DNA from: Haloprofundus halobius
GTDB taxonomy: Archaea; Halobacteriota; Halobacteria; Halobacteriales; Haloferacaceae
Assembly (NCBI RefSeq): GCF_020097835.1
Contig: NZ_CP083666.1
Location: forward strand, 1,364,001 to 1,428,000
Length of the DNA stretch: 64,000 nucleotides
Direction of reading: 5' to 3'
A program made the position numbers and the translations under genes. The notes under the pieces were generated by a model. That model did no database searches, was not told the origin of the DNA, and saw nothing but the letters and a program-made list of their open reading frames with translations. Shown piece by piece: positions 10,991 to 19,194 of the stretch (position 1 is its first letter; each line of letters starts with the position of its first letter).

Positions 10991-12133
10991 TCAGTCGAAT
11001 CGGTCGAATCGGAACATCTCGATCGGGTGGTCCGTCTCCCCGTCGACCGCGAGGTCGGCCAGCACCTCGCCGACGACGCTCGCGAATTTGAAGCCGTGTC
11101 CGGAGAAGCCCGCGCCGACGGCCACCTGCGGGTGCTCCGGGAGCGTGTCGAGAATGAAGTGTTCGTCCGGAGAGTTGGTGAACATGCACGTGGCGAGCCG
11201 CATCGTCGGTCCCGCGCCCTCGGGGAAGTACCGCTCGGCGAACGAGTGCAGGAGCGCCTCGTCCTCCGGGTCGGGCTCGGTGTTCCACTCGTCCGGGTCG
11301 ACCTGCTCGTCGCGGTGGTGATACTTTCCGAGTTTCATCCCCGGGACGTCGTAGACGGGCAGGCCGTAGAACCGGCCTTCGGGGACCGAGAGGTTCCAGA
11401 CGGGGAACTCCGCGGGCTGGAACAGACGCGGCGTCTTCGGCTGGAACCACGCGAGCACCTGCCGCTCCGGGACCGCGAGCCCGTCGAGCGCGTCGGCGAA
11501 CTTACAGTTCCACGCGCCGGCGGCCAGCACGAGCCGGTCCGCCTCGTACGTGGCGTCCGCCGTTTCGACGCGAACGCCGCCGTCGGGCGTCTCTTCCCAT
11601 CCGTCGACCGGCTCGCGGGCGCGAATCTCCGCGCCCTCCCGCTGGGCGGCTTCGACGTGGGCGACGATGGCCTGCTCGGGGACGACGAAGCCGCCGTCCG
11701 GCTGGTAGAGCGCCAGGTAGTTGTCCGGGAGCGCGTAGCCGGGGAAGCGCTCGCCGAGTTCGGCGCCCGTGAGCACCTCGTGGGGGATGTCGTACTCCTC
11801 GCAGGAACGTAACGAGCCCTCGAAGACGACGTTCCCTTCGGGTGCGGCGTCGACGGAGCCGGTTCGATGGATGACCGGCCGTCCCGACCGCTCCGCCAGG
11901 TCGTCCCAGAGTTCGTAGGCGCGTTCGATCAGCGGAATGTAGGACGGGTGCTCGTAGTAGGCGCGCCGGATGATCCGCGTGATTCCGTGCGAAGAGCCGT
12001 GCGTGTGCGGGACGTCGTACCGTTCGAGCCCCAGCACGTCCAGCCCGCGTCTCGCGAGGTGGTAGCTCGCAGCGCTGCCCATCCCCCCGACGCCGAGCAC
12101 GATCGCGTCGCGTCGATCGGTCGCCTCGTTCAT
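10991..12133 (-). CDS. solA: Monomeric sarcosine oxidase family FAD enzyme
   Basis: This 380-residue flavoprotein matches the monomeric sarcosine oxidase/N-methyltryptophan oxidase family in length and motifs. It has the dinucleotide fold LGVGGMGSAA near residue 12, SHGITRIIRRAY near residue 48, and a covalent-flavin motif with Cys316 in TCMFTNSPDEHF, equivalent to Cys315 of the bacterial enzyme. It should oxidise sarcosine to glycine, releasing formaldehyde and hydrogen peroxide. A TATA-like AACTATG at about 12160-12167 supports the ATG at 12133. The gene is divergent from the Rieske gene. The symbol is by family resemblance only; N-methyltryptophan or other N-methyl amino acids are alternatives. 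Confidence 0.88.
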   Translation of the reverse strand: MNEATDRRDAIVLGVGGMGSAASYHLARRGLDVLGLERYDVPHTHGSSHGITRIIRRAYYEHPSYIPLIERAYELWDDLAERSGRPVIHRTGSVDAAPEGNVVFEGSLRSCEEYDIPHEVLTGAELGERFPGYALPDNYLALYQPDGGFVVPEQAIVAHVEAAQREGAEIRAREPVDGWEETPDGGVRVETADATYEADRLVLAAGAWNCKFADALDGLAVPERQVLAWFQPKTPRLFQPAEFPVWNLSVPEGRFYGLPVYDVPGMKLGKYHHRDEQVDPDEWNTEPDPEDEALLHSFAERYFPEGAGPTMRLATCMFTNSPDEHFILDTLPEHPQVAVGAGFSGHGFKFASVVGEVLADLAVDGETDHPIEMFRFDRFD

Positions 12134-12135
12134 AC

Positions 12136-12155
12136 GACCGCCTTCGCGGGCGGTC
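12136..12155. promoter_or_regulatory. Inverted repeat over the sarcosine oxidase start region
   Basis: GACCGCC and GGCGGTC are perfect 7-bp arms around a 6-nt spacer. They lie between the TATA-like box and the ATG, where a bound protein would block transcription initiation. An operator role is inferred from that position; being GC-rich, the symmetry could also be chance. Confidence 0.35.
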
Positions 12156-12439
12156 ACCTCATAGTTTGGGCTAGCGTACCACACATTATTTTAGGCTGAA
12201 GCCGAGCCGCCCGTCGCTGTCGGCGCGGACCGCCGCACCCAGGGTCGCCGGGACCGGAAACCGCGCCCCTCCGACCGCCGTTCACTCACGTCGCCGTTTA
12301 CACTCGTCGCGTTAACCGGGTCGGACCCACTCGGAGGTTCCGGAGACCCCGCTTCGTGGATCGGTCGGCGTTCCGAGCGGACCGATCGCGACCCTCGTGA
12401 GCGAGGGACGTGACCCGAACAACCGTGGGGACTTAAACG

Positions 12440-12450
12440 GATACGGTATC
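12440..12450. promoter_or_regulatory. Palindrome between the TATA box and start of the Rieske gene
   Basis: GATACGGTATC is a perfect 5-1-5 palindrome directly after the TATA-like TTAAAC and 14 nt before the ATG at 12465. This is the usual place for an archaeal repressor site. The function is inferred from position. Confidence 0.4.
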
Positions 12451-12464
12451 TGCGATGAACTTTT

Positions 12465-13631
12465 ATGACTGAATCTGAGCACCGTTCGCACATGACACGG
12501 TGGAACGACGGCACCGACGAGATCAGCGCGGTCAGTCCGGACATCACCGACGAAACGAACGCCCTGCCGGCGAAGTACTTCACCGACCCCGACGTCTGGG
12601 AGCTGGAGAAGGAGAAGGTGTTCTCGCGGTACTGGGTGTACGCTGGGCACGCGAACAGTATCCCGGAGCCTGGCGACTTCTTCACCCGAACGGTGGGGGA
12701 CAAGCAGGTCATCGTCGTCCGCGCCCGCGACGGCGAAGTACGGGCGTACTTCAACGTCTGCGCGCACCGGGGATCGAAGATGGTCGACGACACCCCGATG
12801 ACCGATCCGGGAAACATGGGTCGCATCCGGTGTCCGTACCACCTCTGGACGTACGACCTCGACGGGACCCTCTCGAGTACGCCGAAGAGCTTCGAGGAGG
12901 CGAGTCTGAATCCGGACCTCGAAGACGACGACGTCCGGAAACTCGACGCCGAGAGGAACGGCCTGATGGAGGTAACGACGGACAGCATCGGCCCGCTCGT
13001 CTTCCTGAACTTCGACGACGACCCGATGCCGCTGGAGGAGCAGACGGGGAAGATGAAGCGGGAGCTCGAAACGCTGCCGCTCGATGAGTACGTCCTCGCC
13101 CGTCGTATCGTCTCCGAGGTCGAGTGCAACTGGAAGACCTTCGGCGGAAACTACTCGGAGTGCGACCACTGCGAGGCGAACCACCAGGATTGGATCCGTG
13201 GTATCCAGCTCGACGAGTCCGAACTCGAAGTCAACGACTACCACTGGGTGCTCCACTACACCCACGAGGAGGACGTCGACGACGAGATGCGCATCCACGA
13301 GGAGCACGAGGCCAAGTTCTACTACCTCTGGCCGAACTTCACAGTCAACATGTACGGGACCGCCGACGGCTACGGCACCTACATCATCGACCCCATCGAC
13401 GAGGGACGGTTCAACCTCGTGGCCGACTACTACTTCAGGGAGGCCGACCTCTCCGCCGAGGAGCAGGAGTTCATCCGGACGAGCAGGCAGCTCCAGGAGG
13501 AGGACTTCGAGCTCGTCGAGCGGCAGTACGCGGGAATGAAGATGGGTGCGATCGGCCAGGCACAGCTCGGCCCGAACGAGCACACCCTCCACAAGTTCCA
13601 CAGGCTCGCCCAAGAGGCGTACAACGCGTAG
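12465..13631 (+). CDS. gbcA: Rieske non-haem iron monooxygenase, glycine-betaine demethylase GbcA-like
   Basis: This 388-residue protein is a ring-hydroxylating-dioxygenase-type alpha subunit. The Rieske cluster ligands are C99-x-H101 and C123-x2-H126. The catalytic iron motif DHCEANH near residues 234-240 supplies two histidines. GbcA and choline monooxygenase share this layout and oxidise N-methyl groups of quaternary amines. With sarcosine oxidase, a dimethylglycine demethylase and a BCCT carrier next to it, conversion of glycine betaine to dimethylglycine is the best prediction. No reductase partner (GbcB) gene is adjacent. The ATG at 12465 is supported by the TATA box 26-33 nt upstream. 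Confidence 0.82.
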   Translation: MTESEHRSHMTRWNDGTDEISAVSPDITDETNALPAKYFTDPDVWELEKEKVFSRYWVYAGHANSIPEPGDFFTRTVGDKQVIVVRARDGEVRAYFNVCAHRGSKMVDDTPMTDPGNMGRIRCPYHLWTYDLDGTLSSTPKSFEEASLNPDLEDDDVRKLDAERNGLMEVTTDSIGPLVFLNFDDDPMPLEEQTGKMKRELETLPLDEYVLARRIVSEVECNWKTFGGNYSECDHCEANHQDWIRGIQLDESELEVNDYHWVLHYTHEEDVDDEMRIHEEHEAKFYYLWPNFTVNMYGTADGYGTYIIDPIDEGRFNLVADYYFREADLSAEEQEFIRTSRQLQEEDFELVERQYAGMKMGAIGQAQLGPNEHTLHKFHRLAQEAYNA

Positions 13632-15214: not shown

Positions 15215-16573
15215 ATGACCGAAACGGACCTCCGACTGTTCGGTTCGATACACGCCGACAGACGCGGCAAGGTCGCCGCCGAACTCGCCGAGTTCGCCGA
15301 CGGCGTCGACGCGCTGTTCGTGGAGATGCCCGCGACGAACGTGACGTACGGTACGTATCTTCGGGCGTTCTGTCGCACGCCACTCGTCGGTCTCGGACTC
15401 GTGCTCGCGATGCTCGTTCACTACCCTGTGTACGCCCTCCTCCAGCGCAGTCCGCACAGCGTGGAGCGACTGGCCGTCGCGGAACTCGTCGAGGAGTGGG
15501 GCGTGAACGTTCACGGCGTCGACGACGACCATCCGGTCGTCTTCCTCGCCGACGCCGGGCCGAAGTGGATACTGCCCAACTGGACGGCGCTCGCGGCGCT
15601 GTTGGTCTACGACCGCTCCGGAGCCCTCGCCACAGTCGCGCTGCTCGTCGGTGCGTTCGCCGGTCTCCAGTTGGTCGCACTCTACGCCACCCGCCTCTGG
15701 GCGGTGGTGACGCTCCCGCTGTGTCTGCTGGTTCTCCACGAACTCGTCCTCGGACCGAGGGCTTCGACGGCCGCCGTCGGCGTCGTCGCCGTCGGATTTC
15801 TGTCGCTCGTGCTCGTCGGTATCGACACCCGAAACGAGACGATGGTCGACCGCATCGCCGAGGTGTCGGCCGATCGTGGCTACGAAGACGTCTGTCTCAC
15901 GACCGGAAACGCACACCTCTCGGGGTTGCTCGACTCCGACGACGTCGACGTTCGCGTCTCGAAGGTGCACACCTCGAAGTGGCTTCGCCGGTCGGCGGAG
16001 ACAGTCGAGAATCCCGAGCCGACGGGAGCGTCCGGTCCCGAAACCGTCGGAGACGTCGGGACCGAACAGCACGTCCTCGGCGCTCGAATCGGCGCGGCAG
16101 TCGTCGACGGCGTCGTCACGCTCGTGGTTGGGTTCGTGTTATTCGTGGGAATGGGTCTCGCTGTGTCGGGCCTCTCCGAATCAGCGTTTCTGAGTCGGAT
16201 GATGGCGGGCGTGGGTATCATGAGCGGGTTCGTCGTCACACCGACGCTCGCGGCGGTGCTGTACGGCTACGTCGCCGAACACCGGTACGGTCGGACTCTC
16301 GGAAAGCGACTGTTCGGCCTCGTCGTCGTCGGCACGGACGGGACCCGCTGTACTCGCCGCGCCGCGGCGCTTCGGAACCTGCTTCGGCCCGTCGACTTCG
16401 TCTTCCTCTATACGGTGGGCTTCGTGACGATGCTCGCCACGCCGCGGCGGCAACGACTCGGTGACCTCGTCGCGGGAACGACGGTGGTCCGCGCAGCCGA
16501 GACGAGCGTCCCAGTTCGGTCGCCGACGAGGCGGAAGACGGTTCGCTCCCGACCCGAGAGCGGTTCCGACTGA
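15215..16573 (+). CDS. TraB-like/RDD fusion membrane protein, copy 1
   Basis: This 452-residue protein joins two domains. The N-terminal part (about 1-240) has LFGSIHADRRGKVAAEL and DALFVEMP, then membrane segments, then ETMVDRI and a terminal GNAHLSGL; this pattern recalls TraB/PrgY proteins. The C-terminal part (about 285-430) is an RDD domain, with an arginine in GARIGAA, GRTLGKRLFGL and QRLGDLVAGT. RDD domains occur in membrane proteins, some linked to ion exchange; the function here is unknown. A close paralogue starts 68 nt after its stop. The ATG at 15215 directly precedes the conserved start of the first domain. Confidence 0.75.
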   Translation: MTETDLRLFGSIHADRRGKVAAELAEFADGVDALFVEMPATNVTYGTYLRAFCRTPLVGLGLVLAMLVHYPVYALLQRSPHSVERLAVAELVEEWGVNVHGVDDDHPVVFLADAGPKWILPNWTALAALLVYDRSGALATVALLVGAFAGLQLVALYATRLWAVVTLPLCLLVLHELVLGPRASTAAVGVVAVGFLSLVLVGIDTRNETMVDRIAEVSADRGYEDVCLTTGNAHLSGLLDSDDVDVRVSKVHTSKWLRRSAETVENPEPTGASGPETVGDVGTEQHVLGARIGAAVVDGVVTLVVGFVLFVGMGLAVSGLSESAFLSRMMAGVGIMSGFVVTPTLAAVLYGYVAEHRYGRTLGKRLFGLVVVGTDGTRCTRRAAALRNLLRPVDFVFLYTVGFVTMLATPRRQRLGDLVAGTTVVRAAETSVPVRSPTRRKTVRSRPESGSD

Positions 16574-16640
16574 GACGCTCTCCGTCGGCGGGGATTCCGA
16601 AAGATTACTCAGTACGAACTACATCGTCGCTGTCAGAGCG

Positions 16641-18044
16641 GTGACATCGAAGTCGACGAACGAACTGGACCTCCGGCTGTTCGGCGCGATACACGCCGAT
16701 AGACGCGGGAAGGTCGCCGACGAACTCGACGAGTTCGCCGAGGGGGTGGACGCGCTGTTCGTGGAGTATCCGGTGGACGGTATCGAGATTCGTGACGTCG
16801 CAGCGATGCTTCTCAGAGTACCCATCGCCGGTCTCTCGATACTGCTCATGACTCTCGTCCACTTCCCGCTGTACGCGCTCTGTCAGCGTCACCGACTCCC
16901 CGCAGAGGCGCTCGCGGTCCGAGAGAAGAGCGATGCGTGGAACGTCCCCGTGTACTCCGTCGACGACCATCCCGTGACCATCATGGCCGAAGCCGACTGG
17001 GGGTGGACACTCCCCAACTGGGTTGGACTCGTCGCACTGGCGGCGCTGATGCCGGGTGCGACCGTCACCGTCACTAGTGCGCTCGTTTTCTCGTGGCTGC
17101 TGCTGACGGTGGTCGGAAGACACGCGACTCGGCTCTTCGTCCCGTTCGGCGTCGTCGTCCCGCCGGCGTTGCTCGTGCTGCTCGTTCAGTTCGCCTCGCT
17201 GCCGTATCTGGTCGTGGTCCTCGTCGTCGCGCTGACGCTCCTATTTGTGGTCTACGGGACGCTCGATTACCGGAACGAGGTGATGCTCGACCGAGTCGAG
17301 TCCATCTCGGCCGAGCACGGCTACGGAGACATCTGTCTCGTGACGGGCAAAGCGCACCTGTCCGGGTTACTCGAAGCCGGCGAAGAGACGACTCTCGACG
17401 TCTCGCGGATGCACACGTCGAATTGGCTTCGCACGTCGTCGAACACCGTCGAGAATCCGAAACCGACGGACGAAGAGGAGACGACACCACCAGACGGTGC
17501 CCTCGGAACCGAGAGAGACGTTCTCGGGGCACGGGTCGGCGCGGCGCTCGTCGACGTCGTTGTTACTGTCGTCCTCGGTGCCGTGGGGTTCTTGCTGATC
17601 GGTCTGGCCGGGGTCGTTCTCTTCGCCCGCCCGACTGCGAGAGCCGTTCTCCTGTGGGGATTTCTCGTCGCACCGGCGTCGGCCGCCGTTCTCTACGGTG
17701 CCACAACCGAGTACAGATACGGACGAACGCTCGGCAAGCGACTGACCGGACTCGTGGTGGTCGGAAGCGACGGTGACCGGTGTACGCGACGCTCGGCAGT
17801 ACTCAGAAACGCACTTCGACCGGTCGATTTCGCCTTCTGCTACGGCCTCGGCTTCGTGGCGATGCTCGTCACCGAACGCCGACAGCGTCTCGGTGACCTC
17901 GTCGCCGACACGGTGATCGTGCGGGCCGCGGCGGCCGACACAGAGGCGGACGCCGACCGACCGCCGACCGGAGACGATGCTGGAGCGATGGAAGGCAGAG
18001 AGGACACCGATACCGAAACGAAGGCGCGAAGCTGGGTTCGGTAG
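16641..18044 (+). CDS. TraB-like/RDD fusion membrane protein, copy 2
   Basis: This is the tandem paralogue of the preceding gene, about 467 residues long with the same domain order: LFGAIHADRRGKVADEL, ALFVEYP, membrane segments, NEVMLDRVES, GKAHLSGL, then an RDD domain with GARVGAA, GRTLGKRLTGL and QRLGDLVADT. I start at the GTG at 16641, because frames further upstream overlap the end of copy 1 and show no conservation. A longer start cannot be excluded. Similarity is clear across the full length but the membrane parts have diverged, so the duplication is not recent. The two genes are probably cotranscribed. Confidence 0.75.
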   Translation: MTSKSTNELDLRLFGAIHADRRGKVADELDEFAEGVDALFVEYPVDGIEIRDVAAMLLRVPIAGLSILLMTLVHFPLYALCQRHRLPAEALAVREKSDAWNVPVYSVDDHPVTIMAEADWGWTLPNWVGLVALAALMPGATVTVTSALVFSWLLLTVVGRHATRLFVPFGVVVPPALLVLLVQFASLPYLVVVLVVALTLLFVVYGTLDYRNEVMLDRVESISAEHGYGDICLVTGKAHLSGLLEAGEETTLDVSRMHTSNWLRTSSNTVENPKPTDEEETTPPDGALGTERDVLGARVGAALVDVVVTVVLGAVGFLLIGLAGVVLFARPTARAVLLWGFLVAPASAAVLYGATTEYRYGRTLGKRLTGLVVVGSDGDRCTRRSAVLRNALRPVDFAFCYGLGFVAMLVTERRQRLGDLVADTVIVRAAAADTEADADRPPTGDDAGAMEGREDTDTETKARSWVR

Positions 18045-18219: not shown

Positions 18220-19194
18220 ATGGAGTACACCACCCTCGGCGATACGGGGATGACCGTCTCTCGAATCTGTCTCGGCTGCATGAGCTTCGGCACGAGCGAC
18301 TGGCGCGAGTGGGTGTTGGACGAGGAGGCAGGGTTGGAACTCGTCGACCGAGCGATAGAACTGGGAATCAACTTCTTCGACACCGCGAACATGTACTCGA
18401 ACGGCGAGTCCGAGCGCATCCTCGGCAAGGCGCTGGAGGGCCGACGCGACGAGGCCGTCGTCGCTACGAAGGGCTACTTCCCGATGGACGAGGACGACCC
18501 CAACTCGGGGGGCCTGTCGCGCAAAGCCATCGAGCAGCAACTCGACGCGTCGCTCGACAGACTCGGGATGGACACCATCGACCTCTACCAGACCCACCGC
18601 TTCGACTACGACACGCCCATCGACCAGACGGTCGCGGCGCTCGACGACGCGGTTAGACGAGAGAAGATTCGCTACTTCGGCGCGAGTTCGATGTGGGCCC
18701 ACCAGTTCTCCGAAGCCTTGTACGCCAGCGACCTGCTCGGCTACGACCGCTTCGTGACGATGCAAAACCATTACAACCTGCTCTACCGCGAGGAGGAGCG
18801 CGAGATGCTGCCGCTCTGCGAGAAGGAGAACGTCGGCGTCATCCCGTGGTCGCCGCTCGCGCGCGGGTGGCTCGCTCGCCCGCACGAGGAGGCCCGCTCC
18901 ACGAAGCGCGGCGAGACGGACAGCCTCGCGCACGGTCACCCGTATCTGGAGGGCGGCGGCCGCGAAATCAACGAGCGCGTGCAGGAACTGGCCGACGAGA
19001 AGGGTGTGAAGATGGCCCAAATCGGGCTGGCGTGGCTGTTCCACAAGGAGTGGGTCGACGCGCCCATCGTCGGCACGACGAGCGTCGAACACCTCGAAGA
19101 CGCCGTGGAGGCGCTCGACATCGACCTGAGTTCCAGCGATATGGAGTACCTCGAGGCGCCGTACCAGCCGGTTCGCGTCTCGGGCCACGAGTAG
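18220..19194 (+). CDS. Aldo/keto reductase
   Basis: This 324-residue protein is an NADPH-dependent aldo/keto reductase of the YajO/general-stress type. It begins MEYTTLGDTGMTVSRICLG and has the catalytic tetrad context FFDTANMY (Asp, Tyr), ATKG (Lys) and QTHRFD (His). The cofactor region near the C-terminus reads PIVGTTSVEHLEDAV. It should reduce aldehydes or ketones, but the physiological substrate is unknown. The ATG at 18220 begins the barrel; the open frame extends upstream without conserved sequence. Confidence 0.93.
   Translation: MEYTTLGDTGMTVSRICLGCMSFGTSDWREWVLDEEAGLELVDRAIELGINFFDTANMYSNGESERILGKALEGRRDEAVVATKGYFPMDEDDPNSGGLSRKAIEQQLDASLDRLGMDTIDLYQTHRFDYDTPIDQTVAALDDAVRREKIRYFGASSMWAHQFSEALYASDLLGYDRFVTMQNHYNLLYREEEREMLPLCEKENVGVIPWSPLARGWLARPHEEARSTKRGETDSLAHGHPYLEGGGREINERVQELADEKGVKMAQIGLAWLFHKEWVDAPIVGTTSVEHLEDAVEALDIDLSSSDMEYLEAPYQPVRVSGHE

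Follow-up and report, generated by a model that had tools for sequence, protein, structure and literature searches.

Tandem haloarchaeal genes fuse a diverged, membrane-embedded TraB/Tiki-superfamily domain to an RDD domain

The 64,000-nucleotide stretch of DNA analysed here (the window) comes from a haloarchaeal genome of 3.9 Mb and contains two adjacent paralogous genes, A and B, on the same strand (Table 1). The encoded proteins share 53% identity. The start of B had at first been placed at position 16461, where its open reading frame begins, but this overlaps A. The sole in-frame start codon near the conserved N-terminus is the GTG at 16641, which yields the 467-residue protein and leaves a gap of 67 bp after the stop codon of A. 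An orthologue of A (78% identity) is present in a congeneric genome, G003, which also carries the orthologous A-B pair (locus L111). Both reading frames are thus genuine genes, with this conserved pair and with homologues in other Halobacteriales genomes. A dN/dS of about 0.44 between A and this orthologue indicates moderate purifying selection on A. Among the five genomes of the genus that were sampled, tandem fused copies occur only in the genome of the window and in G003; the two fused copies of genome G312 are unlinked. We infer that a duplication inside the genus gave rise to the tandem pair, with a complete site kept in both copies.

Table 1. Genes A and B, their domains and motifs, and the downstream neighbour (window coordinates; residues in the numbering of each protein)
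Feature	Position	Strand	Basis or remark
Gene A, TraB-like/RDD fusion, 452 aa	15215..16573	+	ORF; ATG start at 15215; RDD match; orthologue in G003
A motif 1, GSIH (GxxH), residues 10-13	15242..15253	+	G 32/32, H 31/32 in fusions
A motif 2, DALFVE, residues 32-37	15308..15325	+	E 31/32 in fusions
A motif 3, VDDDH, D103	15518..15532	+	D 32/32; aligns with TraB 'LVDRD'
A membrane insert of about four predicted helices, residues 116-206	15560..15832	+	AlphaFold2 helices 116-132, 134-157, 159-179, 185-221; hydropathy
A motif 4, DTRNE, R206	15824..15838	+	R 31/32; aligns with TraB 'RDxxMA'
A motif 5, GNAH (second GxxH), residues 231-234	15905..15916	+	G, H 31/32; aligns with TraB 'GAGH'
A RDD domain (PF06271), residues 288-421	16076..16477	+	E 1.6e-18
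Gene B, TraB-like/RDD fusion, 467 aa	16641..18044	+	GTG start; 53% identity to A
B motif 1, GAIH, residues 15-18	16683..16694	+	counterpart of A motif 1
B motif 2, DALFVE, residues 37-42	16749..16766	+	counterpart of A motif 2
B motif 3, VDDHP, D108	16959..16973	+	counterpart of A motif 3
B motif 4, DYRNE	17265..17279	+	counterpart of A motif 4
B motif 5, GKAH, residues 236-239	17346..17357	+	counterpart of A motif 5
B RDD domain (PF06271)	17523..17906	+	E 1.1e-16
Aldo/keto reductase gene (PF00248), syntenic neighbour outside the fusion	18220..19194	+	directly downstream of B

The C-terminal third of A and B is an intact RDD domain, as the earlier note had claimed. The PF06271 profile matches both copies and all 32 fused homologues above its cut-off, and the signature residues R291, D298 and D417 (A numbering) are invariant in the 32 proteins. 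The N-terminal half was less tractable. Searched as single sequences, the N-terminal ~280 residues of either protein gave no significant match in Pfam or NCBIfam, the N-terminal region of A had no match among PDB sequences, and the TraB_PrgY_gumN model (PF01963) did not match A or B individually even at E 10. In view of this, relatives were collected.

Profile A5, built from the N-terminal domain, was run on 392 Halobacteriales genomes and found homologues in 76. Architectures were read from the open reading frames in the fetched regions. About 32 proteins carry the C-terminal RDD domain; they come from about 30 of the 392 genomes (~8%) and six family-level groups. About 38 further proteins of 210-330 aa consist of the N-terminal domain alone (standalone relatives). 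A further profile scan of genome contigs added only Haloprofundus marisrubri, with a copy of the A N-terminal domain (84% identity) on a contig that is apparently the one seen in G003. In plasmid records, fused relatives are annotated as 'RDD family protein' and standalone ones as 'hypothetical protein'. The combination is thus not common, and the view that it belongs to no described TraB-RDD family agrees with the records examined, in which the fusion is not annotated as such.

Scanned individually, 11 of the 32 fused homologues matched PF01963 (best E 7.6e-5), as did 9 of the 32 standalone homologues scanned one by one, mostly on the C-terminal motif and in a common register. The curated gathering cut-off of 26.8 bits was not reached by any of these relatives. 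A ChaN HMM, for another member of the Tiki superfamily, matched four standalone homologues, and TIGR00261 (traB) matched three homologues. Single proteins matched below threshold, but the wider family gave a strong match in profile-profile comparison. Aligned with haloarchaeal TraB by hhalign, the standalone family scored 97.3% (E 2.3e-11, 199 columns) and the merged fused and standalone family 96.5% (E 8.4e-10, 206 columns), with the motifs in register. The fused subset by itself gave a weak match (18-27%), so the case for homology to TraB depends on taking the whole family together. The aligned motif pairs were GSIH/GTAH, DALFVE/DVVAVE, GVNVHGVDD/GIDVALVDR, RNETM/RDAYM and GNAHLSGL/GAGHRAGI. 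Reversed TraB and the RDD profile, used as controls, both stayed below 1%. Three of the 120 comparisons with column-shuffled alignments scored high (about 133). The single outlier that was inspected aligned just 10 columns at the end of the template and is a numerical artefact rather than a competing match. Searched across the phylum, the standalone-family profile retrieved classical TraB-sized open reading frames and a TraB of the window's own genome.

AlphaFold2 models were built from family alignments for A and for one standalone protein (L109). The N-terminal domain of A was modelled with a pLDDT of 90-97 over most of its length, and the L109 model had a mean pLDDT of 87. Searched with Foldseek against the PDB (350,542 chains), the L109 model had as its best match chain 8bqs_DQ (E 0.023, probability 0.87), which a sequence search names 'TraB family protein'; the source paper lists it as a TraB-family subunit (PMC10060162). 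The best TM-score to this chain was 0.36 at an rmsd of 13.6, a loose superimposition. The fused model ranked EreC first (E 0.06). EreC, 2qgm and HopBA1, which we take to be Ere/Tiki-fold relatives, recurred in both lists. Neither model had a PDB match at E 0.001, and with superimpositions this loose the fold search is concordant rather than conclusive. Taken together, family HMM matches, profile-profile alignment and the concordant fold search show that the N-terminal half is a diverged member of the TraB/PrgY/GumN (Tiki) superfamily, to which the earlier note had likened it; no other family matched better.

In the model of A, a strand with the first GxxH motif (residues 4-11) is followed by a strand ending next to E37 (33-36), helices between 45 and 76, a strand leading to D103 (98-101), the helices of the insert listed in Table 1, and a strand ending in the second GxxH motif (225-231). 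Two further strands precede the RDD helices, which begin at 288. Given this order of strands, motifs and helices, the model and hydropathy together place the membrane helices of A and B within the TraB fold, after the D103 motif and before the R206 motif. The earlier description of a TraB-like part, a membrane domain and an RDD domain in succession must therefore be revised, as there is no separate middle domain. The helical segment 45-76 was considered as a further membrane crossing. This is unlikely, since the segment aligns with a TraB helix ('FQFIAYWMLSYVQ'), residues 56-76 corresponding to a helical stretch that ordinary TraB proteins have too, and since an odd total of crossings would leave the sheet divided between the two sides of the membrane. 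If the insert crosses an even number of times and the RDD domain starts on the same side, helix counts in the model suggest that both GxxH motifs would face the cytoplasm.

The conserved residues are distributed as expected for the superfamily, with two GxxH motifs, a glutamate and an arginine in order. H13, E37, D103, R206, G231 and H234 (A numbering) are present in A and B, and the full set of six is retained by 30 of the 32 fusions and by 29 of the 32 standalone proteins. Both A and B also show the LFG-IHADRRGKVA start and the AHLSGL end, from which the earlier note had suspected a working site. Copies that miss one motif residue often miss several: L085 lacks H13, E37, G231 and H234, and L091 and L056 also lack several. 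Such joint loss is the pattern predicted by one functional site and, with the retention of the six residues elsewhere, supports that suspicion. Three loci look like decayed copies. In L085 (4215-5780, minus strand) and L056 (4965-5954, minus strand) several motif residues are gone together, in the latter along with the RDD domain, and in L084 (4650-6190, minus strand) the reading frame is broken across two open reading frames.

On balance, we consider it rather likely that A and B are membrane-embedded hydrolases of the Tiki type, probably metal-dependent, that face the cytoplasm and are coupled to, or anchored by, the RDD domain. In such an enzyme, the sheet bearing both GxxH motifs would lie on the cytoplasmic face, atop about four membrane helices, and the histidines and acidic residues would together make up a single hydrolase site, which probably needs a metal, as has been proposed for TIKI and PrgY. 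The substrate might be a peptide or small molecule that resides in the membrane or crosses it, and the three-helix RDD part might anchor the enzyme or handle substrate or product. Metal-dependent hydrolysis is suggested by the descriptions of TIKI and PrgY as membrane-tethered metalloproteases or peptidase (PMC12329661; PMC7117660). The chemistry proposed for A and B is an analogy to these proteins. We know of no archaeal TraB for which a catalytic activity has been shown.

The roles of the two halves could also be reversed. The RDD domain would then be the working unit, a cation/H+ antiporter or another transporter, and the TraB-like part would serve in regulation or sensing and not as an enzyme. 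The invariance of the RDD signature would fit this reading, as would the Na+(Li+,K+)/H+ antiport reported for one RDD protein, from Halobacillus (PMC5996927), an activity relevant to a halophile. However, the standalone TraB-like domains lack an RDD domain and keep the hydrolase motif set, which indicates that the N-terminal domain functions independently of RDD. We regard this reading as unlikely.

The neighbourhoods of fused and standalone genes differ branch by branch. The earlier note saw no hint of function in the adjacent genes. This holds insofar as the neighbours prove none; weak hints do exist, here in the aldo/keto reductase gene, which lies downstream of related genes in G003, G025 and G307 as well, and elsewhere in cobalamin genes. 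The search for co-occurring genes that it had proposed did reveal recurrent neighbours in individual branches (aldo/keto reductase, carA/carB, cobalamin genes), none of which establishes a function. Nine fusions (L071, L072, L075, L076, L077, L081, L082, L083 and L086) lie beside the carbamoyl-phosphate synthase genes carA and/or carB. They form one clade from two families, and the adjacency probably reflects vertical inheritance, so we discarded it as a functional hint. Elsewhere in the window, a flavin amine-oxidase-like gene (minus strand) lies beside a Rieske-type oxygenase gene (plus strand) at 10991-13631; judged from the sequence by eye, the two resemble a small gene cluster for demethylation of betaine or amines.

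Fusions of two clades, drawn from three haloarchaeal families (L054, L055, L059, L062, L065; L067, L068), lie among or next to genes for cobalamin biosynthesis (cbiA-, cbiT-, cbiL-, cbiF- and cbiG-like). In genus g34 the fusion sits between a cobyrinate diamide synthase-like gene and cbiT, on the same strand. ChaN, of the same superfamily as TraB, binds haem. By analogy, the TraB-like part could bind a tetrapyrrole or a metal and the protein could serve corrinoid or cobalt handling, in line with the two separate clades and the ChaN matches of the four standalone members. Most other fusions, including those of the window, are nevertheless found away from cobalamin genes, the association is a post hoc observation, and a single ancestral placement could account for it. 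We hold this reading to be improbable.

The standalone members keep a different company. Their non-redundant near neighbours (n = 130) include four phage integrases and three proteins with a Cdc6 lid domain. Loci picked by eye contain type IIG and type I restriction-modification genes, a DUF1156 methylase with McrBC, HerA-like ATPases and AbiEii. Eight standalone genes (L069, L073, L088, L094, L103, L109, L110 and L115) lie beside restriction-modification, HerA-like, AbiEii, McrBC or integrase genes, and Cdc6/Orc1-like genes occur near L069, L073, L097, L103, L108 and L113. It is possible that these loci are mobile or defence islands, an association that, as the loci were picked by eye, serves as a lead only. 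PADLOC has no model for the family, and no phage record was related to the one standalone member searched. As a speculation to which we give little credence, the standalone proteins might form a mobile-element or defence-island family, possibly of membrane effectors or of enzymes that, like plasmid PrgY/TraB, shut off signal peptides. The window's own RDD fusions would then be a chromosomally settled branch in which RDD couples hydrolysis to transport.

Finally, the TraB resemblance might be short-motif convergence on an unrelated membrane protein, as the missing PF01963 match of A and B and the modest fold-search scores could suggest, but this is very improbable given a profile match that is collinear over the full length and keeps five motifs in register, against low controls, and independent HMM and structure-search matches that all point to one superfamily.

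To our knowledge, no role has been established for archaeal TraB-type proteins or for most RDD proteins, and the two are annotated separately. A recurrent natural fusion indicates that the two activities work jointly at a single membrane, so that a shared function can be tested for both families, with concrete residues and organisms for the tests. The N-terminal domain moreover marks out a large haloarchaeal branch of the Tiki superfamily with fused and standalone members. For the most part this branch lacks annotation, and it escapes the curated models now in use.

Compared with known systems, the C-terminal part of A and B resembles RDD proteins such as that of Halobacillus andaensis in its intact three-helix domain with the R, D and D residues. 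It differs in sitting behind a TraB-like domain, and transport would apply to A and B by analogy. ChaN (PF04187) and erythromycin esterase (PF05139) are Tiki relatives weakly matched by some standalone members or, as EreC, by the fold search. Unlike A and B, they are soluble or lipoprotein enzymes without the membrane insert and without RDD. The host genome also encodes a small TraB of 287 aa (L018, 3333-4196) and a classical TraB of 558 aa with a hydrophobic insert inside its core (L019, 1702-3378). The latter shares with the fusions the TraB core, the hydrophobic insert between motifs 3 and 4 and later membrane helices, but has a much higher TraB score (66.9 bits) and no RDD domain. PF01963 matches were found in 39 of 39 Halobacteria sampled, against the ~8% of Halobacteriales genomes with the fusion. 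With the TraB/PrgY/GumN family (PF01963, TIGR00261) as a whole, A and B share the order GxxH, E, D, R, GxxH, the order of strands and helices, and about 200 aligned columns. They differ in falling below the Pfam thresholds, in the predicted insert of about four helices between D and R, and in a C-terminal RDD domain that replaces TraB's own C-terminal membrane region.
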